52,169 bases of DNA from an uncultured Dokdonia sp. (GTDB lineage Bacteria; Bacteroidota; Bacteroidia; Flavobacteriales; Flavobacteriaceae): the NCBI RefSeq assembly GCF_937910895.1, contig NZ_CALEMI010000041.1:1-52169 (forward strand), read 5' to 3'. The notes below the pieces were generated by a model that made no database searches, was not told the origin of the DNA, and saw only the letters and a program-made list of their open reading frames with translations. Below are positions 317 through 52,105 of the stretch, piece after piece. The position numbers were made by a program, and so were the translations under genes. Within the stretch, counting starts at the first letter, position 1, and each line of letters begins with the position of its first letter.

Positions 317-2350
317 CTATAGTTTACTAGCCGCCTCACGTAACAGCTCATTGCTATCTTCTTTGGCTTTCTCAACAAAGTCTTCGGCACCTGGAATGTC
401 TTTAAGTGATTTTGAATGCGCTTTCGCGAAAGCGTACAGACTCTCAATCCCCGCCATACGAGTACCTATCTTCTTTGCCGATGTATTAAAGAATCCTATC
501 ACCTCCTCTTCTGTTAAATCTAGAGCTAGTTTTTGGATACTCTCCATAGTCGCTAGACGTTTTTCTTCTGGAAGATTTGCTAGTTTTTTACCTAACTTAT
601 TGATTTGACTCAACGCTGAAGCTTGTTGCTGTGGAGCCACTTTTTGCGGTTGTGCATTGTTTTGCTGTGGCTTCGGTTTTTGTTTTGCCCAAGAGTCACG
701 CAATCCTACGGTGCGGTTAAATACTAATTTTTCTGGTGTACTGTCTATATCAACATTAAAATATCCCATACGCTGAAACTGAAAACGGTCTCCTATTTTG
801 GCATCTGCCAGAAAAGGCTCTAGGTATCCCGTAATCACTTTTAGAGAGTCAGGATTGACGTATTGCATAAAATCGGTGTCCTTGTCTCCATCTGGTGATT
901 CGTGGTTAAATAAACGATCATATAAGCGTATCTCTGCTGGAATCGCATGAGCGATAGATACCCAATGTAAAGTTCCTTTCACGTGTCGCTTAGAAGCCTC
1001 TGTATTGCTTCCTGATCTACTTTCAGGATCATAGGTACAATGAATTTCTGTGATGTTTCCGTTAGCATCTTTTACAACGCTTTCCCCTTTAATGATATAG
1101 GCATTTTTGAGACGTACTTCGTTTCCAAGCGTCAATCTGAAAAAATTTTTTCCAGCATCTTCTTTAAAATCTTCTCTTTCAATATACAACTCCCCACTAA
1201 AAGGTACTTGATGCTCTCCAGCATTTGAATCCTCAGGATTATTTTCGGCAACAACCATCTCTTCTTTACCTTTTGGATAATTGGTAATGATCAATTTTAC
1301 AGGATCCAATACCCCCATCACACGTGTTGCAGTCTTATTAAGATCTTCTCGAATATTGAATTCTAATAGAGAGACATCTATAATATTTTCTCGTTTGGCA
1401 ACACCCACAGTATCTATAAATTTACGAATAGCAGCGGGTGTATATCCTCTTCTACGTAATCCAGAAATCGTAGGCATACGCGGATCATCCCATCCAGAAA
1501 CGATATTTTCTTCTACAAGGCGTAATAACTTACGCTTACTCATAATTGTGTAGCTTAAGTTTAAGCGGGCAAATTCACGTTGTTTTGTACGTACGTCTTC
1601 TCCTGTATACACCTGATCCAAAAACCAATCATAGAGTTTTCTATGAGGCTTAAATTCAAGCGAACATAAACTGTGTGAGATTTGTTCTATATAGTCGCTC
1701 TCACCATGCGTCCAGTCGTACATGGGATAGATACACCAATCATTTCCTGTGCGATGATGTTCTTTATACATAATGCGATACATCATAGGATCTCGCATCA
1801 ACATATTGGGATCTTCCATATCAATTTTTGCACGCAATATATGTTCTCCAGCCTCAAACTCTCCATCTTTCATTCGGGTAAAAAGATCTAGGTTTTCTTC
1901 TACAGAACGATCGCGATAAGGACCTGCAACACCTGGTTGTGTTGGGGTTCCTTTTTGAGCCGCTATTTCTTCGCTCGTCTGACTGTCTACGTAGGCTTTT
2001 CCGTCTTTAATCATTTGGATTGCCCAGTCGTATAGCTTCTGAAAGTAATCACTAGAAAAACATACTTTATCCCATTGATACCCTAACCAAGCAACATCTT
2101 GTTTGATCGCATCTACATATTCCTGTTCTTCTTTGGCAGGATTGGTATCGTCAAAACGTAAGTTGACGGGAGCATTGTACTTCTCCCCTAGCCCAAAACT
2201 AATACAAATCGCCTTGCAATGCCCAATGTGTAAATATCCATTAGGTTCTGGTGGAAATCGAAATCGCAATTGGTCTTTTGTATACCCATTTGCCAGATCA
2301 TCTTCTATGATTTGCTCTAAAAAATTAAGTGGTTTTTGTGATTCTGTCAT
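317..2350 (-). CDS. glnS: Glutaminyl-tRNA synthetase with C-terminal extension
   Basis: Cytosolic class I aminoacyl-tRNA synthetase that charges tRNA-Gln with glutamine. The class I signature PNGYLHIGHCKA is near residue 40 and the KMSKS-type loop MSKRKL near 270; the anticodon-binding beta-barrels follow. At 677 aa it is much longer than E. coli GlnRS (about 550). The extra ~100 residues come after a Gln/Lys-rich linker (KPKPQQNNAQPQK) and are helical and charged, resembling the appended YqeY-like domain seen in some bacterial GlnRS; that assignment is tentative. A copy of the TTTCGCGAAA palindrome is read in frame as YAFAKAH near residue 641, inside this extension. The start MTESQKPLNFLEQ matches the usual N-terminus. 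It is followed by a terminator and seems to be transcribed alone. Confidence 0.95.
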   Translation of the reverse strand: MTESQKPLNFLEQIIEDDLANGYTKDQLRFRFPPEPNGYLHIGHCKAICISFGLGEKYNAPVNLRFDDTNPAKEEQEYVDAIKQDVAWLGYQWDKVCFSSDYFQKLYDWAIQMIKDGKAYVDSQTSEEIAAQKGTPTQPGVAGPYRDRSVEENLDLFTRMKDGEFEAGEHILRAKIDMEDPNMLMRDPMMYRIMYKEHHRTGNDWCIYPMYDWTHGESDYIEQISHSLCSLEFKPHRKLYDWFLDQVYTGEDVRTKQREFARLNLSYTIMSKRKLLRLVEENIVSGWDDPRMPTISGLRRRGYTPAAIRKFIDTVGVAKRENIIDVSLLEFNIREDLNKTATRVMGVLDPVKLIITNYPKGKEEMVVAENNPEDSNAGEHQVPFSGELYIEREDFKEDAGKNFFRLTLGNEVRLKNAYIIKGESVVKDANGNITEIHCTYDPESRSGSNTEASKRHVKGTLHWVSIAHAIPAEIRLYDRLFNHESPDGDKDTDFMQYVNPDSLKVITGYLEPFLADAKIGDRFQFQRMGYFNVDIDSTPEKLVFNRTVGLRDSWAKQKPKPQQNNAQPQKVAPQQQASALSQINKLGKKLANLPEEKRLATMESIQKLALDLTEEEVIGFFNTSAKKIGTRMAGIESLYAFAKAHSKSLKDIPGAEDFVEKAKEDSNELLREAASKL
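419..434. repeat. Iterated palindrome copy 1 (inside glnS)
   Basis: Exact CGCTTTCGCGAAAGCG, perfectly self-complementary. It lies inside the C-terminal extension of GlnRS and is translated as AFAKA. Confidence 0.9.
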
Positions 2351-2498
2351 CTCCCTAAAAATTGAAGACGTAAAATTACGGAAATTCCTGCTCTTGAAGT
2401 CAAAAAGAAATGATGGTGTTAAAAGCGCTATTGCCTTTAGGAAAGAATTAATTGTAACAAAGGTCTTATAACTGTTACTTATAAATAAACTACAACCT

Positions 2499-2711
2499 AT
2501 GAAACATTTAAATTATAGCTGTCCAAAATGCAATCATCGTGAATATACTGTTGGTCAAATGAGAGCTACTGGAGGTACATTGTCTAAAATATTTGATATA
2601 CAAACAGAAAAATACACCTCTGTTACATGTCAAAAATGCACGTTTACAGAGTTTTACAAATCAAAAACGAGTGCTATAAGTAATATCTTTGACTTGTTTG
2701 CTGGCGGATAA
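2499..2711 (+). CDS. Small zinc-ribbon protein (zinc_ribbon_13 / DUF2082-like)
   Basis: A 70-residue protein with two CxxC pairs, CPKC near residue 9 and CQKC near 47, which should form one zinc ribbon. The spacing and the motif TGGTLSKIFDIQ fit the family annotated as nucleic-acid-binding Zn-ribbon protein (zinc_ribbon_13, formerly DUF2082). The biological role of that family is not established. It stands alone, divergent from glnS, with no obvious TAnnTTTG promoter in the 148-nt gap. The short length and paired cysteines make it a real gene rather than a chance frame. Confidence 0.8.
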   Translation: MKHLNYSCPKCNHREYTVGQMRATGGTLSKIFDIQTEKYTSVTCQKCTFTEFYKSKTSAISNIFDLFAGG

Positions 2712-2716
2712 AATTA

Positions 2717-2732
2717 TGCTTTCGCAAAAGCG
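2717..2732. repeat. Degenerate copy of the iterated palindrome
   Basis: TGCTTTCGCAAAAGCG differs from the 16-bp consensus at two positions, so the centre is no longer self-complementary. It lies just after the zinc-ribbon gene. Confidence 0.6.
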
Positions 2733-2814: not shown

Positions 2815-2820
2815 ATAAAT

Positions 2821-3968: not shown

Positions 3969-4649
3969 CTACTCTCTACTATCCCGAAAGTTTTCAAGAC
4001 CTTTTTTGATATCCATTTTATCTTTTGGTAAAAAGCCTTTTATTGTAAGGATGAGTCCGCAGATAATTAAAATAAGCCCTAGCAATTTTTTTACTTTAAA
4101 GATACGTCTAGGTGTGAGGAATCTTTTCAATTGTTTGGCAAGTACAATCTTTCCTAAATCAACAACAAAATAGGTAGAAATCATAATTCCTAAAAAAGTA
4201 AACAGTCTCACAGGATCATTGTCTACTGTGGGTCCTACAACAATAATGACACCTAGCCAAATAACTAACACGCCTATATTGATAAAATTGAGAAAAAAAC
4301 CTTTGATAAAGAGTTGCAGGTTTCCGTGTTTTCCACTTTTTACTCTGGAAGGATCTAGCATATCTCGTGTGGGTCTTTTTAAATACATCATCAGACCGTA
4401 CACCATAAGTATAACACCACCAAAAACGTATAGTCCTGGTGCATTACTAAGATTTTCTAATAATTGATAACTACTTAAATAAGCGATCCCGATAAAGAAA
4501 ATATCGGCAGTAAAGACTCCTAAGTTAAAGGTGATAGCGGCTCTAAATCCTTTGGTAGCTGCTGTTTCAAGAAGTACAAAAAACACTGGACCGATCATAA
4601 ACGCTAGTATGAGACCAGAGGTAAGTGCAGCAGGAAAATCTTGAAACAT
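3969..4649 (-). CDS. LysE-family amino acid exporter
   Basis: A 226-aa inner-membrane protein with about six hydrophobic segments. The N-terminal FPAALTSGLILAFMIGPVFF corresponds to the LysE/RhtB signature (GxxxGPxxF), where the family exports amino acids or related solutes. FFLNFINIGVLVIWLGVI in the fourth segment is the Bacteroidota form of the second conserved region. The substrate cannot be read from sequence. The C-terminus is charged and cytosolic. It has its own promoter (4669-4699), so it is probably transcribed alone. Confidence 0.88.
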   Translation of the reverse strand: MFQDFPAALTSGLILAFMIGPVFFVLLETAATKGFRAAITFNLGVFTADIFFIGIAYLSSYQLLENLSNAPGLYVFGGVILMVYGLMMYLKRPTRDMLDPSRVKSGKHGNLQLFIKGFFLNFINIGVLVIWLGVIIVVGPTVDNDPVRLFTFLGIMISTYFVVDLGKIVLAKQLKRFLTPRRIFKVKKLLGLILIICGLILTIKGFLPKDKMDIKKGLENFRDSRE

Positions 4650-4699: not shown

Positions 4700-4804
4700 G
4701 AACTCTTTATTTTATCCTTTCGTTGAGTCATATACGCTATACAATGACAAATATATGCTTTCGTACTTCGAGGAGCTTAGTGTAAACTTTTAGGTTGTTT
4801 TATC

Positions 4805-4820
4805 CGCTTTCGCGAAAGCG
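4805..4820. repeat. Iterated palindrome copy 2 (intergenic)
   Basis: Exact CGCTTTCGCGAAAGCG, followed by TAC. It lies between the 5' end of the LysE gene and the terminator of the DUF2807 gene. Confidence 0.9.
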
Positions 4821-4830
4821 TACCAAGTAT

Positions 4831-4892: not shown

Positions 4893-5567
4893 TTACATCA
4901 CTCTGATGCGTCCTCCAAAGGTTCTGCTTCGCTTTACTTCTGCTGGTTTGCCGTATACATCTACATCGCCTCCGGCACGTATGGTAATGTCTACTTTTTT
5001 AGAAGCATATACTTCTACTTCTCCCCCAGCCTGTACAAATACTTTAGCAAATTCTGTTTCAAAATCTCTGCCTTCATAGACACCCCCTGTATTCACTGTA
5101 ATATCTTGTGAGGTTGCAAGTCCTGAGGCTTCTATAATCCCTCCTGTTACGGCACGCATCTCAGCATTTCGTACTTTTAATCCTACTTTGATACGGGCGC
5201 CTTCCTGCATTTTGATTTCAATTTCGTCCTGCTCTATGAGTTCGTTAGAAGTAATTTCTGCGCCTTCATTACCATCAATCGTTTTTAGGTTGTTATAATA
5301 CACGTTGACAAACGTGTTATTTCCGTCAAAAATCAAATCAAATTCCATACGGATTTTTAATTTTCCATCTTTATTGATGACTTCTACCTGACTAGCGTCT
5401 GCTCCAGAAACGACTACTTTATTTTCTTCAGATTTGACGAGGTTAACGACAATACGGTCATATACTTTTACTTCTGTAAAATCATCTACATTTTTTGTGA
5501 TAGGGTCTTGTGCAAATGTAATGGCTGATATACTTACAGCAATTACGATTATTATGATCTTCTTCAT
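4893..5567 (-). CDS. Exported DUF2807 (GIN domain) protein
   Basis: A 224-aa protein with a type I signal peptide (MKKIIIIVIAVSISAITFAQ). The rest is a repetitive beta structure with rungs such as VKVYDRIVVNLVKSEE, GAEITSNE and AGGDVDVYGKPAEVK, typical of the DUF2807 'putative auto-transporter adhesin head GIN' family. These are secreted or periplasmic beta-helix proteins common in Bacteroidota, with unknown function. The end KRSRTFGGRIRVM is short and basic and is not a T9SS tail. It is a single gene with its own terminator. Confidence 0.85.
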   Translation of the reverse strand: MKKIIIIVIAVSISAITFAQDPITKNVDDFTEVKVYDRIVVNLVKSEENKVVVSGADASQVEVINKDGKLKIRMEFDLIFDGNNTFVNVYYNNLKTIDGNEGAEITSNELIEQDEIEIKMQEGARIKVGLKVRNAEMRAVTGGIIEASGLATSQDITVNTGGVYEGRDFETEFAKVFVQAGGEVEVYASKKVDITIRAGGDVDVYGKPAEVKRSRTFGGRIRVM

Positions 5568-6124: not shown

Positions 6125-8320
6125 TTACTCCTTCACTCCTATTAAATGGAAATCTAGATGTTTTTTTACCAGATCAGCTTCTTTTACTTTGACAATCACT
6201 TCATCTCCTAAGGTGATTTGCGTTTTGGTACGTTGTCCTATAATCGAATAACTTTCTTGATCAAATTCATAATGATCTCCTTTGATATCGCGTAAGCGAA
6301 CCATGCCTTCACATTTATTAGAAATGATCTCTACATAGATTCCCCATTCTGTCACACCAGAAATAACGCCTAAAAATTCTTCATCCTTATGATCTTGCAT
6401 AAACTTGACTTGCATATATTTGATACTGTCACGTTCAGAACTAGTTGCTAGCTGCTCCATGGAGCTTGAATGCTTGCACTTTTCTTCATATTCTTCTTCA
6501 CTTGCCGACTTCCCACCATCTAAATAGTGTTGTAATAATCGGTGTACCATGACATCGGGATACCGACGGATGGGAGATGTGAAATGTGAATAATAATCGA
6601 AGGCGAGTCCGTAGTGTCCTATATTGTCTGTAGAGTACACGGCTTTTGACATGGTACGTATGGCAAGCGTGTCTACTAGGTTTTGTTCTTTCTTGCCTTG
6701 TACGTCTTCTAAAAGACTATTCAGCGAACTCGTGATGCTCTTACGATCTGTGAGATTAAGTTTATACCCAAACTTACCTACTACAGTTTCTAAAGCAGCT
6801 AATTTCTCATCATTGGGTTCATCGTGAATTCGATAGACAAAGGTATGTTTTGGTGTCTTTTTTCCTATAAATTCAGATACTTTACGATTGGCGAGTAGCA
6901 TAAATTCTTCAATCAGCTTATTGGCATCTTTTGAGGTTTTAAAAAATACGCCTGTTGGATTGGCATCTTTATCTAAATCAAATTTTACTTCTACTTTATC
7001 AAAAGAGATCGCACCATCTTTCATACGTTGTCTACGCATGATTTTGGCTAATCTGTCTAACTCTAAAGTAGCTTCAACAAGGGTATCATCTACTTTATAC
7101 GCTTTTCCAGTTAAGGATACTTCAGCTGGAATTACATTAGTTCTAGATTCAATGATCGCCTGCGCTTCTTCATAGGCAAAACGAGCATCGCTGTAGGTTA
7201 CGGTACGTCCGAACCATTGGTTATGTATTTTCGCGGAAGCGGGATTCATTTCAAACACAGCAGAAAACGTATATTTCTCTTCATGTGGTCGTAAGGAACA
7301 GGCGCCATTACTTAATATTTCTGGAAGCATCGGCACAACTCTATCTACGAGATAAACCGAGGTTGCACGTTCATAAGCTTCATCATCTAGAATGGTTCCA
7401 GGTATCAAATAGTGACTTACATCTGCAATGTGGATTCCTATTTCGTAATTGCCGTTTTCTAATTTTTTAAAGCTTAAGGCATCATCAAAATCTTTGGCAT
7501 CTTTAGGATCTATGGTAAACGTAAGCGTATCACGCATATCACGACGCTTAGCAATTTCCTCTTTTTTGATGGAAGTATCTATCTTATTAGCAAAGTCTTC
7601 AACCTCTTGAGGAAACTCGTATGGGAGTCCGTATTGTGCTAAAATAGAATGAATTTCGGTATTATGTTCGCCTGGTTTTCCAAGTACCTTAGTTACTTTT
7701 CCAAACGGAGAATCGGCTTTATCTGGCCAATCTTCTAATTTGACTACTACTTTATCGCCGTTTTCAGCTTTTCCAATTTTATTAAGGGGTACAAAGACAT
7801 CTGTGTACATCTTGTTCCCTTCTGAGGTATGTACAAAGGCAAACTTTTTCTGAATCTCAATCACGCCGACAAATTCATCGGTTTTACGTTGTAAGATTTT
7901 TACGATTTCACCTTCGTGTTTCTTATTACGGCGTTGTCTGTATACATATACTTCGACTTCATCACCGTTTAATGCTTTGTTTAAGTGATGTGGAGGAACG
8001 TAAATATCCTGTTCCATATCTTCTACCATTACATAGCCACCGCCTTTACCAGAAACATCTAGGATGCCAGTATGGTAATTGCGGTTAGGGATGAGTTGGT
8101 ATTTACCACGTTCAGGTTCTATAATCTGATCTTTGGCTTTTAATTGGGCTAATTTTTTGATCACCATATTCCGACTACTCGTATCATTTACGTCTAATTT
8201 TGCGCAAATTTGTTTGTAGTTGAATGTTTTATGGTGGTCTTCTTTAAGGATCTTCATGATCCTTTCTGTGAGGTTATTGATGGTTGCAGAACTGTTTCGT
8301 CTGCGTCTTTTTTTTGTCAT
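6125..8320 (-). CDS. rnr: Ribonuclease R
   Basis: Processive 3'-5' exoribonuclease of the RNase II/R family that degrades structured RNA in the cytosol. The 731-aa order is normal: a winged-helix domain (about 15-75), cold-shock domains with GYVMVEDMEQDIYVPP, the RNB domain with catalytic aspartates in TIDPKDAKDFDDALS (about 275-290), HFTSPIRRYPDVMVHRLL, and an S1 domain near the C-terminus (GVISGVTEWGIYVEI). The basic start MTKKRRRRNSS is typical. A weakly related TTTTCGCGGAAGCG sequence lies within it near 7228-7241. A TAGCTTTG box on the minus strand at 8486-8479 could be its promoter and would give a leader of about 150 nt. Confidence 0.95.
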   Translation of the reverse strand: MTKKRRRRNSSATINNLTERIMKILKEDHHKTFNYKQICAKLDVNDTSSRNMVIKKLAQLKAKDQIIEPERGKYQLIPNRNYHTGILDVSGKGGGYVMVEDMEQDIYVPPHHLNKALNGDEVEVYVYRQRRNKKHEGEIVKILQRKTDEFVGVIEIQKKFAFVHTSEGNKMYTDVFVPLNKIGKAENGDKVVVKLEDWPDKADSPFGKVTKVLGKPGEHNTEIHSILAQYGLPYEFPQEVEDFANKIDTSIKKEEIAKRRDMRDTLTFTIDPKDAKDFDDALSFKKLENGNYEIGIHIADVSHYLIPGTILDDEAYERATSVYLVDRVVPMLPEILSNGACSLRPHEEKYTFSAVFEMNPASAKIHNQWFGRTVTYSDARFAYEEAQAIIESRTNVIPAEVSLTGKAYKVDDTLVEATLELDRLAKIMRRQRMKDGAISFDKVEVKFDLDKDANPTGVFFKTSKDANKLIEEFMLLANRKVSEFIGKKTPKHTFVYRIHDEPNDEKLAALETVVGKFGYKLNLTDRKSITSSLNSLLEDVQGKKEQNLVDTLAIRTMSKAVYSTDNIGHYGLAFDYYSHFTSPIRRYPDVMVHRLLQHYLDGGKSASEEEYEEKCKHSSSMEQLATSSERDSIKYMQVKFMQDHKDEEFLGVISGVTEWGIYVEIISNKCEGMVRLRDIKGDHYEFDQESYSIIGQRTKTQITLGDEVIVKVKEADLVKKHLDFHLIGVKE

Positions 8321-8704
8321 TTAATTGTAATCATATTGTATTTCTATATAAAATAGAAATGTACTTATTTTTTGCTTAATGAATGTATGGTTATGCATGA
8401 GGAGAAGAATGCATTGATATCGTGAAGTTATTAAAAACTTGTATGAATTCATAGATACTAAATTCATTAAGATTGGTGCAAAGCTACGCTTTAAATATTA
8501 AATGATGTATTTAGATTATTATTTTAAGATTAAGAGACTGTTTTCTTAGTTTTATGAAAGAGAAAAGCGCACCTATTTTTAGACACGCTTTTGATTTTTT
8601 TAAAGTATTCGCTTTCGCGAAAGCGTACTTAGAATCTATAATTTTCATTGTTTGCCTAAAATCCTAAAGGATGGAATAAAAATTTCTTCAATTCGCCTAT
8701 GTTA
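8321..8704. other. 384-nt intergenic region upstream of rnr
   Basis: It holds the rnr leader, a possible minus-strand -7 box (8486-8479) and one exact iterated palindrome (8610-8625). Nothing else is supported. A 37-codon plus-strand frame at 8554-8667 runs through the palindrome but looks accidental. Confidence 0.6.
8610..8625. repeat. Iterated palindrome copy 3 (intergenic)
   Basis: Exact CGCTTTCGCGAAAGCG followed by TAC, about 80 nt past the stop of the beta-propeller gene. Confidence 0.9.
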
Positions 8705-10168
8705 TTACTCTATAATCAATTTTTTAGAAGCCATTCCTTCACTTGTAGTGACTTGAAGAATATAGATTCCTTTTGTAAATTGAGAAGTGTCTATGGTTGT
8801 ATTTTGTGTAACAAAAACACGTTGACCTAAAGTATTATAAAGTGTGATTTTTTGAAGTACTGCTGTGTGTTCTCTTGGCAATTCTATAGTTACTGTAGAA
8901 GGTGCAGGATTTGGAAAAAATGTAAAACGAGAGGTGGCAGATTCTTTAACAGATAGTATAAATTCGTTATTAAGATCAAATATACGTACTTCACCTTTCC
9001 CAGCTTTACTCAAATTAGAACCTACAGCTATAATAGTACCATCTGAAGAAAGACTCACACTAATACCAGCTTGATCTCCGGACATTTGACCATCTATATC
9101 ATTTCCAATTTGTTTCCAAACGTTATCTTCATTTTGAAAAATACGAGCATTGCCTGCAGCAAGTCCATTATCATTATTAAATCTTGCACCAATGGCAATT
9201 ATAGTACCATCTGAAGAGAGGCTTAGTCCTCTTCCAAACTGATCGCCTGGCATTTCTCCACTAATAGTATCTCCTATTTGTACCCAATTTTCTTCTTCTT
9301 CTTCTTTATAAATACTCACCAAACCTATATCTTCTTGCTCAGAATTCATCATCATAGAGGATACAGCAAGTATTTTACCATCACCAGATAAACTAATTTC
9401 CCTTCCATACTGATCGCCATCTATTTGACTGCTAATATCTTGACCTGTCTGAACCCAAAATCCTCCTTGATTCTTATATATTCGAACATGACCAGATAAA
9501 ATACCATTACCCAGATCAAAAGAGGTTCCTACTGCAATAACATTACCATTATCTGAAAGACTGACTGTAGTTCCTAAAACATTAACTCCAACAGCATTGT
9601 TAATAGTATTACCTATTCTATCCCACGTTCCTCCTTGATTTATATATACATCTACTTGACCAGAAACTGGAGAATTTGTATTGATATGATTTGCACCTAT
9701 TGCTACAATACGTCCATCACAGGAGAGGCTTACGCTTCTTCCAAAAAAGAATTGTGATGGGATACCATCAATATCTTGACCAACTTGAGTCCAAAATCCA
9801 CCATGGTTTTCATAGACACGTACATGACCTAAATTATTATTATTATTACTAGCTCCTATAGCTACAATGCTTCCATCACAAGAAAGACTTACACTGATTC
9901 CAGAAAGATCACCTATCGCTTCTCCATCTATATCTTGACCTATTTGGATCCAAGTACCATTAGAGTTTTCATAAACTCTTACGTGTCCAGAATTGGTACC
10001 ATTACCATCATTATCAAAAGCGCCTATAGCTACAATGTTTCCGTCTGAAGAAAGACTGATACTAGTTCCGGAAAGGTCACCTATCGCTTCTCCATCAATA
10101 TCTTCACCTATTTGGATTTGCCCAAAGGTCACAAAAGGAATTAAAATAAAAAGTAATGGAATTTTCAT
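8705..10168 (-). CDS. Secreted seven-repeat beta-propeller protein with T9SS tail
   Basis: The likely start is the ATG at 10168 (MKIPLLFILIPFVTFGQ), which gives a clean signal peptide; the frame is open further upstream but those residues look non-coding. The mature protein has seven repeats of 50-60 residues on the pattern Q(I/V)GxxIDGxxxGDxxGxxVSLSxDGxIxAIG...GxVRVYxN, so a seven-bladed beta-propeller related to FG-GAP/integrin-alpha repeats is likely. Aspartate-rich loops suggest calcium binding. From about residue 415 a type IX sorting domain follows (FTFFPNPAPSTVTIELP, then GIYILQV and KKLIIE). The protein is probably exported and held at the surface or released. Partner unknown. Confidence 0.88.
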   Translation of the reverse strand: MKIPLLFILIPFVTFGQIQIGEDIDGEAIGDLSGTSISLSSDGNIVAIGAFDNDGNGTNSGHVRVYENSNGTWIQIGQDIDGEAIGDLSGISVSLSCDGSIVAIGASNNNNNLGHVRVYENHGGFWTQVGQDIDGIPSQFFFGRSVSLSCDGRIVAIGANHINTNSPVSGQVDVYINQGGTWDRIGNTINNAVGVNVLGTTVSLSDNGNVIAVGTSFDLGNGILSGHVRIYKNQGGFWVQTGQDISSQIDGDQYGREISLSGDGKILAVSSMMMNSEQEDIGLVSIYKEEEEENWVQIGDTISGEMPGDQFGRGLSLSSDGTIIAIGARFNNDNGLAAGNARIFQNEDNVWKQIGNDIDGQMSGDQAGISVSLSSDGTIIAVGSNLSKAGKGEVRIFDLNNEFILSVKESATSRFTFFPNPAPSTVTIELPREHTAVLQKITLYNTLGQRVFVTQNTTIDTSQFTKGIYILQVTTSEGMASKKLIIE

Positions 10169-10352
10169 TTTACCATTATGTTTTTGTAAAGAACGGAAAT
10201 ATTTAGTATTAATAAAAAATTGTTCAACCAAATATCCAATTAACAATTCTATAATATGAATAATTTAAACAAAAAGAGATTAATTCTTAAAAAAAACTTA
10301 AATTTAGTGTAACATTAAGTAAAAAATTACGTCTCTATGAAGAGACTTTCTA

Positions 10353-11172: not shown

Positions 11173-11192
11173 TACGCTTTCGCGAAAGCGTA
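11173..11192. repeat. Iterated palindrome copy 4 (full 20-bp form)
   Basis: Exact TACGCTTTCGCGAAAGCGTA, 24 nt before the rpiB -7 box. Confidence 0.92.
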
Positions 11193-11245: not shown

Positions 11246-11677
11246 ATGAAAATTGCTATTGGAAACGATCACGCAGGTCCAGATTACAAACATGCTATTG
11301 TAGCGTATCTAGAAAGTCAAGGACACGAGGTGACTAATTACGGAACAGATACAACAGACAGTGTAGACTACCCAGATTTTGGACATTTGGTGGCCAAAGA
11401 TGTAGAAAATGGTGTTGTAGATTTTGGGATTGTTATTTGTGGAAGTGGCAATGGGATTGCGATGAGTGTAAACAAACACAAAAATGTACGCGCAGCACTT
11501 TGCTGGATAAAAGAAATAGCAGCATTAGCCAGACAACACAATGATGCTAACGTCATTAGTATTCCTGCGAGATATACGTCAAAAAATCAAGCAGTAGATA
11601 TGGTAAAAACTTTTTTAACTACTGATTTTGAAGGAGGTCGTCATCAACGACGTGTCGATAAAATATCACAGTGTTAA
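11246..11677 (+). CDS. rpiB: Ribose-5-phosphate isomerase B
   Basis: Interconverts ribose 5-phosphate and ribulose 5-phosphate in the pentose phosphate pathway. The 143-aa length is normal for RpiB. MKIAIGNDHAGPDYK is the N-terminal phosphate-binding motif, the catalytic base cysteine lies in VICGSGNGIAM, and the His and Arg residues in RQHNDANV and GRHQRRV bind substrate. The start is set by the family N-terminus. It is followed 29 nt later by an acetyltransferase on the same strand, so the two may form a short operon. Confidence 0.95.
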   Translation: MKIAIGNDHAGPDYKHAIVAYLESQGHEVTNYGTDTTDSVDYPDFGHLVAKDVENGVVDFGIVICGSGNGIAMSVNKHKNVRAALCWIKEIAALARQHNDANVISIPARYTSKNQAVDMVKTFLTTDFEGGRHQRRVDKISQC

Positions 11678-13876: not shown

Positions 13877-15499
13877 TTATTTTAAGGTGTTTTCATAACG
13901 CTTAGCATCATTTAAAATCGTAATTGCTTCGGCTATTTCTTTATTATTTGCTATTTGATATTCATACAATCCATCACGATAGAAATATCGTTTTACAATT
14001 TCGTCAACGAGTAAATTTTGAATCTCCTCTTGACGATCATCTAGTTCTTTATTTTTAGCTACCTCTATGGTTTTTTGTAACTGATTGTAAACAGATGCCA
14101 CTTCATTTTTTAAACCGTCTTTTTCTGCTTGTTCTAACGCTTTCGCGAAAGCGGTTTCCGTCTCCGTTTCAAATGTAAATTGCGTCTTTTTTAAGAATTT
14201 TTTAAAATCCTCATAATCGGCATCACCAAAACGAAACTCTTCTAGATTTGAATACTGATGCTTATAATAATAATCTGTTGCATATTCAAAAATAGCATTG
14301 TCGTTATTCAGCGCTTTTGTAATGGGGCTCATCTTAGCAGATGTTATTTCTACATCTGGAAAAACACCACCTCCATCAAATACTTTACGACCATTTCTTG
14401 TTTTAAACTCGTTATAATTTTGAGATGCTGTACGGACTGCATTTCCTTTCTCATCTCTATTCCAATAATCTAATGCTTGTATACAGCGACCACTTGGCGT
14501 GAAATAGCGAGAGATGGTTACTTTAAGTTGTGTGCCATACGTTAACGGTTTGGGACGTTGTACGAGTCCTTTTCCAAAACTACGAGCACCTATCACTACC
14601 GCACGATCATAATCCTGTAATCCTCCAGTCACAATCTCACTAGCTGAAGCACTACTCCCATTTATTAATATCGCCAAAGGAATCTCAGTATCTACAGGTT
14701 CTTCTTTTGTTTTATAGGTTTTATTATACTTCTTTACCACAGATTTTGTCGTTGTAATTACCTCTCCTTTAGGTAAGAATAAATTACAAATACGAATGGC
14801 TTCTACCAATAAACCACCTCCGTTTCCTCTAAGATCTAGAATAATATTGTCAGCGCCATCATTTTTGAGACTGATGAGCGCTTCTTTTACTTGAGCAGAG
14901 GCTTTTTTATTAAATTTAGTCAATACAATATATCCTGTATTGCCATTAATTAACTTATAAAAAGGGACAGCATCTACATCGACCTCAGCTCTTTTTATGG
15001 TCGCTTGTGCTGTTTTACCTTGTCGGATGTAGGTCACATTAAGGTCACTTCCAGGAGCTCCTTTTAATAAATCACCAGCATCTCCTTCAAAATCTGTTAG
15101 GGAGATATCTCCAATTTTTATAATCTGATCTCCAGCTTTTAGACCTGCTTTATCAGCAGGATATCCTTTACGAGGCTCTATGATCGTCATCACGTTATCC
15201 TTTGTACGTACGGAAGATCCAATACCAGAATAGTCCCCGCTTCTATTAATCTTTGCATCCTCTACTTCTTGCTCTGTCCAGTATTTTGTATACGGATCCA
15301 GATCGTTGAGCATCCCTTCTATTGCCGCATCCATAAGTTCTGCAGGATTGGTCTCATCTACATAATTCATGTTAAGTTCCTTAAAAAGAGTGGTGAAGAT
15401 TTCAATTTGCTTTGCAATCTCAAAGAAATCACTTTTAAAACTTACGGTTGTAAAAAGGATCACAACAGCAATAACGGAAATACTAATTTTCTTTTTCAT
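13877..15499 (-). CDS. C-terminal processing peptidase, S41 family
   Basis: A 540-aa periplasmic serine protease of the CtpA/Prc type. It has an N-terminal signal anchor (KISISVIAVVILFTTVSF), a PDZ domain (GIGSSVRTKDNVMTIIEP to GDQIIKIGDISL, about 75-165) and the S41 core with the catalytic Ser in NGSSASASEIV (about 282) and catalytic Lys in SFGKGLVQ (about 310). It would trim the C-termini of exported proteins. A palindrome copy is translated as TAFAKAL near residue 451 in the C-terminal helical part. It heads an operon with the OmpA-domain and desaturase genes (gaps 4 and 0 nt). Confidence 0.93.
   Translation of the reverse strand: MKKKISISVIAVVILFTTVSFKSDFFEIAKQIEIFTTLFKELNMNYVDETNPAELMDAAIEGMLNDLDPYTKYWTEQEVEDAKINRSGDYSGIGSSVRTKDNVMTIIEPRKGYPADKAGLKAGDQIIKIGDISLTDFEGDAGDLLKGAPGSDLNVTYIRQGKTAQATIKRAEVDVDAVPFYKLINGNTGYIVLTKFNKKASAQVKEALISLKNDGADNIILDLRGNGGGLLVEAIRICNLFLPKGEVITTTKSVVKKYNKTYKTKEEPVDTEIPLAILINGSSASASEIVTGGLQDYDRAVVIGARSFGKGLVQRPKPLTYGTQLKVTISRYFTPSGRCIQALDYWNRDEKGNAVRTASQNYNEFKTRNGRKVFDGGGVFPDVEITSAKMSPITKALNNDNAIFEYATDYYYKHQYSNLEEFRFGDADYEDFKKFLKKTQFTFETETETAFAKALEQAEKDGLKNEVASVYNQLQKTIEVAKNKELDDRQEEIQNLLVDEIVKRYFYRDGLYEYQIANNKEIAEAITILNDAKRYENTLK
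14138..14153. repeat. Iterated palindrome copy 5 (inside S41 peptidase gene)
   Basis: Exact CGCTTTCGCGAAAGCG; coding in the AFAKA frame. Confidence 0.9.
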
Positions 15500-15589
15500 A
15501 GATTCATTCTATCTTCTATATGACAAAGGATTACGTACATCATACACGTACGTATATGTAAAACCCAATATCGGTATTTATATTGTTTA

Positions 15590-15605
15590 CACTTTCGCGA
15601 AAGCG
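15590..15605. repeat. Iterated palindrome copy 6 (intergenic, one mismatch)
   Basis: CACTTTCGCGAAAGCG with intact 12-bp core at 15592-15603, ending 2 nt before the DUF4349 gene stop codon and upstream of the S41 peptidase gene. Confidence 0.85.
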
Positions 15606-15607
15606 TA

Positions 15608-16465
15608 CTATTTCTTCTTTCTTTTCTTGAGCCAACGACGAATCATAAAAATGCTAAGAGCCACTAAGATAATAAAAGGCCAGATGTGTAGCAACCCAAG
15701 GAAAAATTCTGAGACGTTGCTCCATCCATTTTTAAACGCATTAATCATTTTACGTCCATAAGATACGGTAACGCCTCTTTCTGAACTTATTTTATAATAA
15801 TAAATAGTGATGGTACTTTCTGAAACCTGACTCTGTAAGTATTTTAATCTTCCTTCTCGCGCTTCTATTTCCTCACGTATTTTTGATAGTTCGCGTTCTA
15901 TCTCCAGCATTTCTTTTACATTCTTGGCTTTAGAAAGTAGTTCTAAATAACGCTTTTCTAAAGTCCGTTTGGCTTTAAGACGAGCGTTGAGGTCTACAAA
16001 CTCTTCAGTAACATCACGTTGTGAAATCGTCTTTTCTTCAAAAAAAGAAACACCATCAGAGATGGCTGCAATGACAGTATCAAAGTTTTCTGAAGGGATT
16101 CTTACGGTGAGATTATGATATTGAGAATTGTAGTTTTTACCTGTATTATCACGTTGCACATATCCATTTACTTTTTGTACAGCAGCGAGTATTTTTTGAT
16201 GTGTTTTTTCAAGTTCTTGTGTCTCAAAACGAAGGTTCCCTGTTTTAATGATTTTTTGAGAAGTCGTTTGGCTAGGCGGAGGTGGTGTTTCTAAAGCAAC
16301 TTCTTCTGTAATTTCAGCTTCTTCATAATACACATCGTCAGCTTCTATAGAGGACATAAGTCCTAGAATACCATCAGAGTTTTTTGACTCCCAATTAGAA
16401 GTACCAGATTGTTCGCAAGAAACAAGGATAAAAAAACTAAGGGTGAGGAGTAGTAATCGCATCAT
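15608..16465 (-). CDS. DUF4349 lipoprotein
   Basis: A 285-aa lipoprotein (LLLLTLSFFILVSC lipobox) with the DUF4349 layout: a periplasmic domain (KIIKTGNLRFETQELEKTH, VRIPSENFDTVIAAIS), a long coiled coil (LKAKRTLEKRYLELL to EAREGRLKYLQSQV), and a C-terminal transmembrane helix (IWPFIILVALSIFMI) with a basic tail. Its role is unknown; the family is common in Bacteroidota and Firmicutes. Its start lies inside rnpA (29-nt overlap), so the two genes are translationally linked. Confidence 0.88.
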   Translation of the reverse strand: MMRLLLLTLSFFILVSCEQSGTSNWESKNSDGILGLMSSIEADDVYYEEAEITEEVALETPPPPSQTTSQKIIKTGNLRFETQELEKTHQKILAAVQKVNGYVQRDNTGKNYNSQYHNLTVRIPSENFDTVIAAISDGVSFFEEKTISQRDVTEEFVDLNARLKAKRTLEKRYLELLSKAKNVKEMLEIERELSKIREEIEAREGRLKYLQSQVSESTITIYYYKISSERGVTVSYGRKMINAFKNGWSNVSEFFLGLLHIWPFIILVALSIFMIRRWLKKRKKK

Positions 16466-21712: not shown

Positions 21713-21864
21713 ATAAGAGACATTTTAAAAATGTGATTGTAGATTCAGTATACAACGTTTACCAAAATCACTTTTGCAATTTACATATTTCTCATGAGTG
21801 TTTTTATGAAGTGCATCTAAGATGCTTTTCCAAATGTTTTAGCCTTTGAGAAAGGTTCTTTATG

Positions 21865-21880
21865 CGCTTTCGCGAAAGCG
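21865..21880. repeat. Iterated palindrome copy 7 (upstream of uvrC)
   Basis: Exact CGCTTTCGCGAAAGCG followed by TAC, 43 nt before the -7-like box of uvrC, in the gap between the divergent rimK and uvrC genes. Confidence 0.9.
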
Positions 21881-21923
21881 TACTTTTTATGCCTAACACT
21901 TAGTGTCTATCCATGAGAATCTA

Positions 21924-35548: not shown

Positions 35549-37447
35549 ATGAGTGACGCAATAAAGCATGAATGTGGAATCGCCCTTATACGATTAAAAA
35601 AACCACTTACATTTTATAAAGAGAAGTATGGCACTGCTTTTTATGGAGTAAATAAAATGTATCTAATGATGGAAAAACAGCATAACCGTGGTCAAGACGG
35701 TGCTGGATTTGCAAGTATTAAATTAGATATGGCACCTGGAGAACGTTATATTTCTAGACAGCGCTCTACGGCTCAACAACCAATACAGGATATTTTTGCA
35801 CAAATCAATGGTCGAATTAATGAAGTAATGACCGAAAACCCCGATCGAAAAGATGATGTTGAGTGGCAAAAAAGAAATGTTCCCTATGTAGGAGAAGTTC
35901 TTTTAGGACACGTACGATACGGAACCTTTGGTAAAAACAGCGTGGAGAGTGTACATCCTTTTTTAAGACAAAATAACTGGATGCACCGTAACCTTATTGT
36001 TGCGGGTAATTTTAATATGACCAATGTAAGTACGCTTTTTAATAAACTTGTTTCATTAGGACAACACCCCAAAGAGCAGGCAGATACGATCACTGTCATG
36101 GAAAAAATAGGACATTTTCTAGATGATGAGGTAGCAAAATTGTACAAGAAATTAAAAAAAGAAGGATATAATAAGCAACAAGCTTCTCCTCAAATTGCTG
36201 AACGTCTTAAGGTTGAAAAAATCTTAAAAAGAGCTTCCAAAGATTGGGACGGAGGCTATGCGATGGTAGGTCTTTTAGGTCACGGAGATGCCTTTGTATT
36301 AAGAGATCCAGCAGGTATTCGCCCAGTATATTATTATGAAGATGATGAGGTTGCGGTTGTTGCTAGTGAGCGCCCTGTAATTCAAACAGCCTTTAATGTT
36401 GATTTTGAAAGGGTAAAAGAACTAGATCCAGGTAGTGCACTTATTGTAAAGAAAAATGGACACCTAAGCATTGAAAAAGTAATAAAACCGCTTACGCGAA
36501 AAGCATGCTCGTTTGAACGTATTTATTTTTCAAGAGGTAGTGATGCTGAGATTTATAGAGAACGTAAATTGTTAGGAAGATTATTAATGCCAGAGGTACT
36601 TAAAAGTATAGATCATGATACCAAAAATACAGTATTCAGCTTTATACCAAACACGGCTGAAACCTCTTTTTATGGACTTGTAGAAGCAGCACAAGATGAG
36701 CTAAACAAACAAAAAGGGGCAGAAATACTAGCATCAAAAGAAAATCTAGATCAAGAATCCATAGAACGTATCCTTTCGCGAAAGCTAAGAACAGAAAAAA
36801 TAGCGATAAAAGATGCAAAACTCAGAACGTTTATAACAGAAGACAGCAGTCGTGACGATCTGGTTGCTCACGTATATGATGTTACGTATGGGGTTATTCA
36901 ACCTGAAGATAAACTTGTTATTATAGACGATAGTATTGTACGCGGCACAACACTTAAAAAGAGTATTATAAAAATGATGGCGCGCCTTAATCCTAAAAAG
37001 ATTGTTGTTGTTTCATCTGCACCACAAATACGGTATCCAGATTGCTACGGTATTGATATGGCAAAACTAGAGGATTTTATAGCTTTTAGAGCCGCGATAG
37101 CACTTCTTAAAGAAAATGGGAAAGAGAATGTTATTACTGAAGTGTATGAAAAGTGTAAAACACAAATAAATTTTAAAGATAAAAATGTTCAAAATTTTGT
37201 AAAAGAGATTTATGAGCCCTTTACAGATAAAGAAATCTCTTTAAAAATTTCAGAATTATTAAGTGACGAAACAGTAAAACCAGAAGTCGAAATTATTTAC
37301 CAAACAGTAGAAAACCTCCATAAAGCATGTCCTAAAAATTTAGGAGATTGGTATTTTACGGGTAATTATCCAACAAACGGAGGAAACCGTGTTGTCAACC
37401 GTGCTTTTATAAACTATATGGAAGGAAATAGTGCTAGAGCCTATTAG
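35549..37447 (+). CDS. Amidophosphoribosyltransferase-like protein, long form
   Basis: A 632-aa class II glutamine amidotransferase joined to a phosphoribosyltransferase, as in PurF. The nucleophile Cys is at residue 9 (MSDAIKHECGIALI), implying removal of an eight-residue propeptide. NRGQDGAGFASI and HVRYGTFGKNSVESVHPF fit the glutaminase domain; VIIDDSIVRGTTLKKSI (about 459-475) is the PRPP-binding loop and RYPDCYGIDM follows. It is longer than typical PurF (about 470-510) with inserted helical segments and a C-terminal extra part ending NRAFINYMEGNSARAY. A palindrome core is read as LSRKL near residue 410, in one insert. I leave the symbol blank because a canonical purF may lie elsewhere. 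Confidence 0.88.
   Translation: MSDAIKHECGIALIRLKKPLTFYKEKYGTAFYGVNKMYLMMEKQHNRGQDGAGFASIKLDMAPGERYISRQRSTAQQPIQDIFAQINGRINEVMTENPDRKDDVEWQKRNVPYVGEVLLGHVRYGTFGKNSVESVHPFLRQNNWMHRNLIVAGNFNMTNVSTLFNKLVSLGQHPKEQADTITVMEKIGHFLDDEVAKLYKKLKKEGYNKQQASPQIAERLKVEKILKRASKDWDGGYAMVGLLGHGDAFVLRDPAGIRPVYYYEDDEVAVVASERPVIQTAFNVDFERVKELDPGSALIVKKNGHLSIEKVIKPLTRKACSFERIYFSRGSDAEIYRERKLLGRLLMPEVLKSIDHDTKNTVFSFIPNTAETSFYGLVEAAQDELNKQKGAEILASKENLDQESIERILSRKLRTEKIAIKDAKLRTFITEDSSRDDLVAHVYDVTYGVIQPEDKLVIIDDSIVRGTTLKKSIIKMMARLNPKKIVVVSSAPQIRYPDCYGIDMAKLEDFIAFRAAIALLKENGKENVITEVYEKCKTQINFKDKNVQNFVKEIYEPFTDKEISLKISELLSDETVKPEVEIIYQTVENLHKACPKNLGDWYFTGNYPTNGGNRVVNRAFINYMEGNSARAY
36771..36786. repeat. Iterated palindrome copy 10 (core only)
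   Basis: The 12-bp core CTTTCGCGAAAG (36773-36784) is intact; the outer bases have diverged (three mismatches in 16). Read in the LSRK frame within the amidophosphoribosyltransferase gene. Confidence 0.8.
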
Positions 37448-48609: not shown

Positions 48610-51600
48610 TTACTTTTTAATAAATCGCTTAGCCTGTGTTTCACCACCTGTCGCAATTTCTATAATATACATTCCAGCTTTGAGTCTAGATATATCTAGG
48701 GTATTACTAAAGGCTCCTTTATTTACAACTTGACCTAGCATATTGTAGATAGTATAGTTCTCTACATCTGCTCCTACAACTTGAATTGAAAGTTGCCCTC
48801 TTGTTACAGGATTAGGATATACGCTAAATTCAAATGTAGTATTTGAACTTATGTCAAAAGCATTAGATGTGTTAGTTCCATCTGAGAATGCACTACTAGA
48901 AGCATCTATATTCACAATATAATCTTCTACCTCTCCATACTGGAAGCTTTCACAAGCAGTAGGTATTCCGTTATATTTCATAGATACTCTCATACGTGTA
49001 GCTCCTAAAGCTGCTCCCGAAGGAACATTAAATGTACCCGTAATAGGAGTCGCTGTTGTTATACTTCTCGTATATACTGTCTCACCAGCATCTCCAAAAT
49101 CACCATCACGGTTCCAATCTACAAATACAGCATATCCTTCATTGTAAACAGTTCCAGTCCAAAGCGGTGTAATCGTAATCGTATTATTTGCAATTAGTAC
49201 TGTAGAAAGGTTTGTAAAATCACCATATCCACCAGCAGAAGCACCTGTACTATTATCAATACTTCCTATTTGTACTCTTTGAATATACTCATCATTTGTA
49301 TTATTTCCATTTGAAGAGCAGTATCCCGTTGGAGGAATTTGATTTGATCCAGCCGCTAATGTTGTCGCATTTACAGGAGTACTAATTGCAGAAACATTTC
49401 CAGCGGCATCTTTTGCACTTACAGAAAACGCATATGTTGTTTCTACGGTCAATCCAGATACATTTGTTGAGTTTGTTGTTGTCGTATTATAAAGAACACC
49501 ATCTAAATATACCTCGTATTCTGTAACACCTACATTATCTGTAGATGCGTTCCAAGTTAGGTTTAGTGACGTCTCTCCAATATTTGAAGCACTTACATTC
49601 ACAGGTGTAGAGGGCGCCACCGTGTCTATAAATGTTCCTTCAGATATTTTTAAATCATCTATAGCAATATCCCCTTGCCAAGAACTTCCAGAAGTTCCAT
49701 TAAATCGTAATGTAACAGTTCCTCCTACGTAGGCATCAAGATTTACAATAGCGTCAAGCCAGTTTGCTCCTTGATTTCCAGATTTAGACCATACTTCAGT
49801 CCAAGTGATACCGCTATTAGTACTTGCTTCTAAGCGAATCGTACCTACGGCACTTCCAGTCATTTGATATTTAAACGTAGCTTGTGCTTCCGTCATTCCG
49901 GTAAAGTCTAAACATGGAGAGTTTAAAATAGCCACTTTTGCTGGGCTATTAGGATTTGAAGTCTCCATATATATATAATGAGATCCTTCTGCTGCTCCTG
50001 TAGGTCCTGTTCCGTTAGAAGGTGTACCTCCAGTTCTTACTGTCCAATTAAAATCGTCATTAGTTTCTTGTGACCATTGTCCAATAGTATTGTTGAATCC
50101 TTGAGTATATGGAAAAGCAGTTACTTGTGCTGTACAGTCATTTTCTGGTATGACAGGTGTATCTATTGTCGTTACAATAAGGGTGTAATTTTGACTTCCG
50201 GAGAATAAACTTCCTTTATGAGTTACTGTAATTGTATACGTTCCATCAGCATCTTCAACATCTATACGCTCATAAGGATCTACTACATTATCTTGTTTTG
50301 CATTAGAATCAACGCCTGTTAATCTCCAAGGCAAGAATGTGTCTGTATTTTGAGTTACACGGATGTCAAGGTCATTAATAAGTACTGGGGTAGGATCATT
50401 TGTTCCTGTTACTGGAGTTCCTGGTGCATCAGTCCAAGAGATAGATGCTTGTAGGATTTTACCAGCAGGTACTGTAGTTTGGATTTGATAAGAACCTCCA
50501 TCGGTTAATGTGCGTTCATCAATGATTGTAGTTGTTCCGTTGGCAGTAACGGTTTCTGCCATTCTTTTTGCATTTAATAATCCCCAACCGAAGATTGCGT
50601 CAGGACCAATAGCTCCTGCATCATCTGCCGTATGTAAAGCAAGACCTTTTAATGTGGCCGCTTTCGCGAAAGCGCCATTTACATCATTATAATGTTGTTG
50701 TATTAATAATAAAGAACCCATTACATTAGGAGCTGCCATAGACGTTCCTGTAATTGAGTTATAGGCAGTATCACTATTTTGGTAGGTAGAGTAAACAGCA
50801 GTTCCATTACCAGCGATATCTGGCTTAATACGAAAATCATCTGTAGGTCCTTCACTACTTCCACTATTAATATTTACACTGATTAAAGAACCATCTGCTG
50901 CAATACTAGCATCTTGAGCATTTGCAACCACCAAGTTATTTTTTGTTATCGCTTTTCCAGTAAGTTTGTCATAAGCAGCATTACCTTCTAAGGGAGCGCC
51001 ATTGTATGTATTTATATTTCCTTCATTACCAGCAGCAGCCACCATAAGATAAAATGGTGCGTTATACATAATTTGATCCCAGCTTTGAGATTCGCTTGAA
51101 TACGATCCAAACCATTGGTCAGGAATATTTGTTCCTAATAACCCATAAGAGTGATTAGAAATAAGCATACCGTTACTAGCGGCAGCAGTTGCTTCGGCAA
51201 CATCGTCATTCCAACGGTATCCGCTTACTTGCGCATACGGAGCCATTCCTTTTGCATTTGCGTTAACTCCAGATGCCATCACTGTTCCAGTAACGTGTGC
51301 AGAGTGATAATTAAGTTGTAACCCTTCACTTGCTATATCTTGTACCGTATAACGATCTGTTCCTCCAGCACCATCATATTCTTGATGAGAAGCTCTTGCG
51401 TGGCCACCATCCCATACATAAGCTGTCATATTTTGACCCATTAAGTTTAATCCTAATGAACCTCCAGCATTAATATGAGTGGTTCTGGTAGAGATTGCAG
51501 CATCTGCATTAAAAGTGCTGTAGTAAATAGGAGTTCCATCTGGAAGGATCCGTTGTAGTTCTGTAGTTCCTCCGTTTTCCAATTTTAATTGTGTCGGAAT

Positions 51601-51798
51601 TCCTCTTTGAGCAGCTTGTTGCTTTGCAAATTGGCGTTGTTGAGTGCTTACTTGCAAAAACTGTTGTTCTAATTGAGCAAGACGTTCCTGATTGTTTTCT
51701 TTGGTAATTTGTGAGATTTGATCTGGAGTTTGCGCATACATTTGTGTTGCACATAATGCCAAACCTAGAGATAAACCTCTTAGGTAATTTGTTTTCAT
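48610..51798 (-). CDS. Secreted S8 subtilisin-like peptidase with T9SS tail
   Basis: A 1062-aa exported serine protease. Signal peptide (GLSLGLALCATQMYAQ); no classical I9 propeptide is evident. The catalytic triad is visible: Asp in AYVWDGGHARASH (near 128), His in LNYHSAHVTGTVMASG (near 164), Ser in SITGTSMAAPNVMGSL (near 352). A proprotein-convertase P-like beta domain follows (about 420-545), then a MAM-like domain (552-722), fibronectin III (725-815), GEVED (822-965) and a T9SS sorting domain (FSVYPNPVTRGQLSIQV ... KRFIKK). A palindrome copy is read as GAFAKAATLKGLALHTA near 377, inside the catalytic domain. Likely surface-bound or released for protein degradation. Confidence 0.95.
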   Translation of the reverse strand: MKTNYLRGLSLGLALCATQMYAQTPDQISQITKENNQERLAQLEQQFLQVSTQQRQFAKQQAAQRGIPTQLKLENGGTTELQRILPDGTPIYYSTFNADAAISTRTTHINAGGSLGLNLMGQNMTAYVWDGGHARASHQEYDGAGGTDRYTVQDIASEGLQLNYHSAHVTGTVMASGVNANAKGMAPYAQVSGYRWNDDVAEATAAASNGMLISNHSYGLLGTNIPDQWFGSYSSESQSWDQIMYNAPFYLMVAAAGNEGNINTYNGAPLEGNAAYDKLTGKAITKNNLVVANAQDASIAADGSLISVNINSGSSEGPTDDFRIKPDIAGNGTAVYSTYQNSDTAYNSITGTSMAAPNVMGSLLLIQQHYNDVNGAFAKAATLKGLALHTADDAGAIGPDAIFGWGLLNAKRMAETVTANGTTTIIDERTLTDGGSYQIQTTVPAGKILQASISWTDAPGTPVTGTNDPTPVLINDLDIRVTQNTDTFLPWRLTGVDSNAKQDNVVDPYERIDVEDADGTYTITVTHKGSLFSGSQNYTLIVTTIDTPVIPENDCTAQVTAFPYTQGFNNTIGQWSQETNDDFNWTVRTGGTPSNGTGPTGAAEGSHYIYMETSNPNSPAKVAILNSPCLDFTGMTEAQATFKYQMTGSAVGTIRLEASTNSGITWTEVWSKSGNQGANWLDAIVNLDAYVGGTVTLRFNGTSGSSWQGDIAIDDLKISEGTFIDTVAPSTPVNVSASNIGETSLNLTWNASTDNVGVTEYEVYLDGVLYNTTTTNSTNVSGLTVETTYAFSVSAKDAAGNVSAISTPVNATTLAAGSNQIPPTGYCSSNGNNTNDEYIQRVQIGSIDNSTGASAGGYGDFTNLSTVLIANNTITITPLWTGTVYNEGYAVFVDWNRDGDFGDAGETVYTRSITTATPITGTFNVPSGAALGATRMRVSMKYNGIPTACESFQYGEVEDYIVNIDASSSAFSDGTNTSNAFDISSNTTFEFSVYPNPVTRGQLSIQVVGADVENYTIYNMLGQVVNKGAFSNTLDISRLKAGMYIIEIATGGETQAKRFIKK
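50659..50674. repeat. Iterated palindrome copy 11 (inside subtilase gene)
   Basis: Exact CGCTTTCGCGAAAGCG; coding in the AFAKA frame, about 25 residues after the catalytic Ser. Confidence 0.9.
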
Positions 51799-52089
51799 GG
51801 TTGTTGTTGTTTTTATGTTTTGGGGTAAGTAACTACGTTACAATGTTTTTACTACGGTGGCGAAAATCAATTAAAAAATCAGAAACAAAAAAACTTTTCG
51901 ATCAAATGCTTAAAAATCACTTTTATGGGTAAGTATGTGTACGTTTTTATCGATGAAATACCATGAGGAATTGCCGTTTTGGGTAAAAAACAATAACCTA
52001 TATAAGGTTTTGCCTCAAAATGAGAAGACTATGATAGGAGTATGCGTGTTGTATGAAAAGAAGTAAGAAGTGTTTTATTTGAAAAATAA

Positions 52090-52105
52090 TGCTTTCGCGA
52101 AAGCG
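52090..52105. repeat. Iterated palindrome copy 12 (intergenic)
   Basis: GCTTTCGCGAAAGCG at 52091-52105, one mismatch (T for C) at the first base of the 16-bp consensus. Confidence 0.87.

Follow-up and report, generated by a model that had tools for sequence, protein, structure and literature searches.

A long palindrome repeated at hundreds of places in Dokdonia and two other genera of the Flavobacteriaceae, a possible own-DNA site

The contig NZ_CALEMI010000041.1 of an uncultured Dokdonia sp. (assembly GCF_937910895.1, family Flavobacteriaceae), analysed over its 52,169 nucleotides and called the window below, carries a palindromic element with the 14-bp core GCTTTCGCGAAAGC, which recurs every few kilobases. 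The element is gained and lost mainly by base substitution and is conserved between species. As a candidate role, which we put forward tentatively, the palindrome could be an intracellular own-DNA site that is read from both sides and works in a Chi-like manner. Whichever reading holds, it would belong to a sequence-specific DNA-recognition system in Flavobacteriaceae, devoted either to self-recognition in repair or to DNA uptake. To our knowledge, bacterial motifs seldom combine such length, exactness, frequency and even spacing. Literature searches returned no report of the palindrome: the 12-mer string was found in no paper, and the papers in which the 10-mer TTTCGCGAAA occurs do not, by their titles, concern Bacteroidota. 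These searches likewise found no sequence-specific uptake sequence for Flavobacteriaceae.

Occurrence and distribution

An earlier note on this DNA listed 12 copies of a 12-bp core, nine of them part of a 16-mer and two part of a 20-mer. All 12 are present where they were reported and none appears in 100 dinucleotide shuffles; the nine 16-mers are exact, and the two 20-mers are those at 11177 and 24670. A thirteenth, degenerate copy is included in Table 1. The note had estimated about 0.002 chance cores; when the sites are masked, Markov models (orders 1 to 5) predict 0.0005–0.0022 in the window. Without masking, the expectation is 0.001–0.009 for orders 1 to 4 and 0.51 for order 5, a model that contains half of the motif. 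The word TTCGCGAA lies inside a complete 12-mer in 12 of 12 cases in the window, and in 178 of 197, 119 of 121 and 81 of 122 cases in three sampled motif-rich genomes: G299 (Dokdonia), G242 (genus g11) and G190.

Copies also abound outside the window. The genome to which the window belongs (4,809,286 bases) has 922 copies of CTTTCGCGAAAG and a single copy of the same word read backwards. The earlier note had called for a comparison with a Markov model, and the count is far above what such models predict: after masking of the sites, fewer than 0.2 copies are expected, both in the window and in the three sampled genomes. All 18 Dokdonia genomes hold 383–937 copies, and a larger genome does not simply mean more copies: 3.3 Mb hold 921, 4.81 Mb 922 and 5.5 Mb 933. 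In the family, 78 of 299 genomes have at least one copy and only five, from three genera, have hundreds: 922 and 917 in g1 (Dokdonia), 586 and 685 in g11, and 445 in g191. The next highest count is 21. In the phylum, the 14-mer is present in 22 of 395 genomes, and more than six copies are found only in the window's own genome, the sample containing neither g11 nor g191. No palindromic 10-mer with more than three copies was found in 20 kb from each of 20 other genera.

In a FabF tree of 11 genomes, whose inner forks are largely unresolved and in which g11 forms a long branch, g11 does not group with Dokdonia. Its FabF is 78% identical to that of the window, compared to 87–92% for five genomes of four motif-poor genera. 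A patchy distribution of the motif-rich genera is therefore likely, though not proven.

Anatomy of the element

The core is followed outwards by graded bases (178 sites in G299, 119 in G242 and 81 in G190). The outer bases are TACG in Dokdonia, while TCCG or TTCG is commoner in g11. The claim that flanking DNA is not conserved was wrong: on each side of the core, an arm of about 18 nucleotides is strongly biased in composition, the 5' arm avoiding C and the 3' arm G. In the 5' arm of G299, on either strand, C accounts for 2–15% at each position from −11 to −28 (at most 10% at 14 of the 18 positions) and for about 15% beyond, and G and T are enriched. The same pattern is seen in G242, and a weak form of it in G190. 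The bias is alike in coding and intergenic sites. T or G is favoured at −11, −14, −17 and −20, and among ten periods tested in G299, that of 3 nucleotides is the strongest for T, A and T+G (p 0.009–0.024 by permutation of columns), a triplet pattern which is suggestive.

The outer bases of the two half-sites vary nearly independently (116 sites), with a weak symmetry at positions 9 (p 0.02) and 8 (p 0.06), and the two arms of a site are not complementary (676 matches, compared to 712 ± 20 after shuffling). On both observations an RNA hairpin or terminator was rejected, against which it also speaks that the arms are about equal on the sense and antisense strands and that the 3' arm is A/C-rich and not a run of T. 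The near-independence of the half-sites makes it probable that a putative protein dimer reads the palindrome as duplex DNA. The arms are symmetric and carry a strand bias, which suggests that the 5' arm of each strand may matter as a single strand.

Conservation and turnover

When Dokdonia orthologues are compared, the site is identical in 262 of 325 comparisons, where 45.6 are expected (mean alignment identity 79%); these comparisons are not independent, the genomes being related and both directions being counted. Among the 63 non-identical comparisons, 56 are ungapped in the core and are thus substitutions. This share is an upper estimate, since 371 partial alignments were excluded beforehand and an insertion may make an alignment stop close to the site, where PurN alignments to other genera do stop; the non-identical pairs were inspected letter by letter only above 74% identity. 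These results agree with the idea, put forward in the earlier note, of a point-like motif under selection and not of a transposon. In one gene, translated by eye, the peptide HAFAKAL goes with the site and EAYAQEL with its absence; in another, also translated by eye, the peptide AFAKA is kept with different codons.

In 503 kb of Dokdonia DNA, sequences with 0, 1, 2, 3 and 4 mismatches to the 16-mer number 83, 28, 12, 19 and 31, and 23 of the 28 single mismatches are at the outermost base. The corresponding numbers for the control CGCAAAGCGCTTTGCG are 0, 0, 0, 2 and 10; control words that differ from the motif at only a few bases pick up the motif's own sites and are unsuitable for comparison. 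Coding sites are at the same place in Dokdonia and g11 in 2 of 19 and 0 of 13 testable genes, and in Dokdonia and g191 in 6 of 19 and 5 of 17 (orthologues below 40% identity or not spanning the site were excluded). Positions mostly differ between genera, so that sites filled the genomes largely independently of one another.

Spacing and genomic context

For the first 100 sites of G299, the coefficient of variation (CV) of the gaps is 0.77 (0.99 for random placement, p 0.003) and six gaps are below 1 kb, where 23.5 are expected. The spacing in G299, G242 and G190 was further compared to random placements which keep the coding and intergenic shares of sites. Such short gaps number 7 of 176 in the larger G299 set (54 expected), 2 of 116 in G242 (28 expected) and 0 of 78 in G190 (11 expected). 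Gaps above 10 kb are also rare: none in G242 (9.7 expected), whose gap CV is 0.44, and three in G299 (12.0 expected).

Giant open reading frames (ORFs) of 2,939–5,060 amino acids lie in all four long gaps whose genes were listed, namely three of the five gaps above 9 kb in G299:1-580,000 and one of the four above 14 kb in G190:1-280,000. The region G299:C1:287411-320307 (L177–L179) contains two such ORFs, of 4,431 and 5,060 amino acids, with no motif copy inside; each adjoins an ORF of 318 amino acids, and these have the same first 70 residues.

Intergenic DNA holds 99 of 178 sites in G299, where it makes up 10.2% of the sequence, and 52 of 119 in G242 (12.0%). It holds only 13 of 81 in G190 (10.6%). 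No positional bias along G299 was detected in a subset of 67 sites (Kolmogorov–Smirnov p 0.33).

Islands and phage-like contigs

In several motif-poor genomes, the few copies are clustered (they are scattered in G144 and G042). In G076, all 19 copies lie within 78 kb of one contig. Pairs of copies 933 bp apart recur across several genera, within one gene of 405 amino acids read as TolC-type, and several clusters hold genes which, on inspection by eye, look like those for metal efflux, Fur, TolC and P-type ATPase. The clusters had raised the idea of an origin or terminus site, which was abandoned as several of them hold these metal efflux-like genes instead. Island-like regions whose genes look like metal efflux genes are common to several genera of the family (G076:C3:30001-110000, that is L021–L024, and L027–L037) and carry the motif though their hosts are otherwise nearly without it. 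Several of these hosts have an ORF of 598–616 amino acids with a ParB_N domain 2–32 kb from the island copies.

Many island sites are intact at 70–87% identity and others are decayed; that of the Fur-like gene is unchanged in each of the four other islands for which there was an alignment. The islands were chosen because they hold copies, so that site conservation is biased upwards. The islands have probably spent time in motif-rich hosts, and the motif may mark DNA derived from such a host. Two stretches of 312 bases are 100% identical between the islands of G201 and G189, which belong to different genera (L028 642 and 1325; L029 4335 and 5018), the mark of a very recent transfer.

The IMG/VR database contains 41 stretches with the 16-mer. 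Those above 50% GC are probably due to chance. Several of the contigs look like phages: one encodes a terminase-like protein with 54.5% identity to its counterpart in a Winogradskyella phage, and a capsid protein shares 45.1% identity with that of a Cellulophaga phage; these two named related phages, from other hosts, have no copy of the motif. The arms are also present on islands and viral contigs: the proportion of C is 0.11 in the arms and 0.19 further out, both for 50 partly homologous island sites and for 37 distinct sites of viral contigs below 50% GC (contigs above 50% GC and repeated contexts being excluded).

Possible function

A candidate dimeric protein would bind the palindrome on duplex DNA, and the T/G-rich 5' arms would be used by a factor working on one strand next to the core. 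On reaching the palindrome, from whichever side, a machine that processes breaks or degrades DNA would recognize the DNA as its own and pass the T/G-rich strand on to a RecA-type filament; these last two steps are the least sure. Any DNA resident in these cells would then profit from a site every few kilobases. That resident DNA, phage-like contigs included, has sites every few kilobases fits a self-recognition site, and we lean towards an intracellular function on account of the phage carriage and the strict spacing in g11. A fuller scheme, which is rather doubtful as a whole, has a dedicated dimeric reader of this two-way own-DNA site and T/G-rich triplet arms that hold a RecA-family filament on either strand; reader and sites would form a transferable self-recognition system to which phages and islands have adapted.

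The resemblance to Chi, the site of RecBCD and AddAB, lies in the T/G-rich DNA on the 5' side, which suits RecA filaments. The densities are also similar, since E. coli has about one Chi per 4–5 kb. The palindrome differs in being much longer and readable from both sides, and its link to an enzyme is a proposal. The Chi-like role is attractive because RecA, according to a passage of PMC3763553, prefers TGG repeats or TG-rich DNA and covers three nucleotides per monomer.

Several observations weigh against this Chi-like role. RecC was found in none of 35 genomes, and AddB-like nuclease domains are present in 16 of 16, motif-poor ones included, so that no break-processing enzyme tracks the site. 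The Chi sites that we know of have 5–8 nucleotides and are not palindromic, unlike this 14–20 bp palindrome. In G190, the arms are weak and gaps above 10 kb are as frequent as expected (15, compared to 16.6). The triplet period is weaker in G242 (p 0.06–0.12 for intergenic and 0.006–0.06 for coding sites), where period 2 beats period 3 for A and T+G in intergenic sites, and it is mixed in G190. The same passage of PMC3763553 describes RecA nucleation as no better on TG-rich or Chi DNA, with only a slower dissociation on TGG repeats; the arms would then stabilize the filament and not start it. Lastly, as judged from part of PMC7371117, the carriage by islands is also predicted if the palindrome is an uptake sequence.

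A palindromic DNA-uptake sequence is about as likely as the Chi-like own-DNA site. Competent cells would prefer DNA with the motif, and recombination after uptake would spread the putative sites across the genome and also across mobile DNA that has long been resident. Like the DNA uptake sequences of Neisseriaceae and the uptake signal sequences of Pasteurellaceae, the element has many near-perfect copies, even spacing, lineage dialects in its outer bases, and carriage on islands from other hosts. Its gain and loss by substitution, the excess of exact over near copies and the mostly different places in different lineages also favour this reading. It differs from them in its strand-symmetric arms and its presence on phage-like contigs, and in being a perfect palindrome where an oriented, non-palindromic motif would be looked for; we know of no uptake sequence that is palindromic. 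The spacing speaks on both sides, as significant even spacing is cited for uptake sequences in a section of PMC1939737, which also describes them as less even than compaction needs, whereas G242 is very regular. An uptake sequence would explain the drive, the dialects and the islands equally well, because Neisseriaceae have islands whose uptake dialect is foreign (PMC7371117, in part). In the same family as Dokdonia, Riemerella columbina prefers its own DNA, according to an extract of PMC7965970.

It is unlikely that the palindrome is the binding site of a putative chromosome-organizing protein which anchors or compacts DNA every few kilobases. The over-regular spacing, the near-independent half-sites and the intergenic excess in two of the three genomes (G299 and G242) would fit, and SlmA, Noc, parS and matS systems also rely on long palindromes suited to dimer binding. 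The sites of these systems are fewer and tied to chromosome regions, unlike the hundreds of copies found here with no regional bias in the tested subset. The strand-skewed arms would be left unexplained, and phages would hardly need such a site. A site of the ParB or Noc type would be expected to come with an extra ParB-family protein, which does not track the motif: ParB_N gives one match in nine of ten motif-rich genomes (two in G300), and two or three in 7 of 14 motif-poor ones.

A sequence like the highly iterated palindrome of cyanobacteria (HIP1), created and kept by DNA methylation and repair, is very improbable. The element does share with HIP1 and the alternate HIPs a lineage-specific distribution and a palindrome that recurs at hundreds of places, within genes as well as between them, and in the genome as a whole is far more frequent than a Markov model predicts. 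Usual methylation sites are shorter than 14–20 bp. The selected unit here consists of 14–20 bp plus skewed arms, with a core of 14 bp instead of 8. A C5 methyltransferase domain is missing in four of seven Dokdonia genomes, in G242 and in G190, and it is present in G010 and several motif-poor genomes, so that no C5 methyltransferase (the only type searched) is common to all motif-rich genomes tested. The HIP1 or methylation reading of the earlier note is thus not borne out as far as it was tested, even if the mostly terminal position of one-base deviations is as in HIP1, judging from part of PMC4390886.

An insertion element, such as a short mobile palindrome of the repetitive extragenic palindromic (REP) or RAYT type, can largely be dismissed despite the many copies and the intergenic excess in two genomes, since most non-identical orthologues (among alignments that do not end near the site) are ungapped in the core and speak against copies arising by insertion, the spacing is over-regular and degenerate copies are few.

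Neither a C5 methyltransferase, nor an extra ParB, nor RecC tracks the motif, and no reader was found among the RecC, AddB-like, C5 methyltransferase and ParB families. The exact 20-bp word could serve as bait for catching its protein.

Sites in the window

Table 1. Copies of the palindrome in the window and their surroundings
Positions	Location	Remarks
417–436	In class I tRNA synthetase (E and Q type) gene, ORF 317-2350 (−)	
2717–2732		Degenerate, two mismatches to the 16-mer; aligns with an intact copy in G312
4803–4822	Intergenic, between ORFs 3969-4649 and 4893-5567	
8608–8627	Intergenic, between ORFs 6125-8320 (RNB domain) and 8705-10246	
11173–11192	Intergenic, between ORFs 8705-10246 and 11246-11677	Full 20-mer
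14136–14155	In S41 peptidase gene	Peptide TAFAKAL
15588–15607	Between ORFs 13877-15499 and 15608-16465	One outer mismatch
21863–21882	Intergenic, upstream of UvrC gene	Kept in D. pacifica (L002) and L003
24666–24685	In patatin/Omp85 gene	Full 20-mer; peptide RTLSRKR; kept in L001, L002 and L003
33472–33491	In formyl transferase gene	Peptide VYAFAKAH
36773–36784	In conserved peptide LSRK	Bare 12-mer without outer bases
50657–50676	In subtilase (S8) gene with C-terminal sorting domain	Peptide GAFAKAA
52088–52107	Upstream of S8 ORF (48610-51798, −)	One outer mismatch

The site of the S41 peptidase gene has a 51-base match around a copy in G010 and G242 (genus g11), and Dokdonia G314 keeps the same peptide without the site. 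The site of the formyl transferase gene is intact in L001, L002 and G206 (L012) and has one mutation in L003. The copy at 36773 is perhaps not a complete element; L003 and G206 have it intact, and in L001 and L002 it is changed. Positions 1-273 of the window are a repeat at the window's edge, which recurs with 98% identity in another contig of the same genome and with 85–87% identity at three places in G311.

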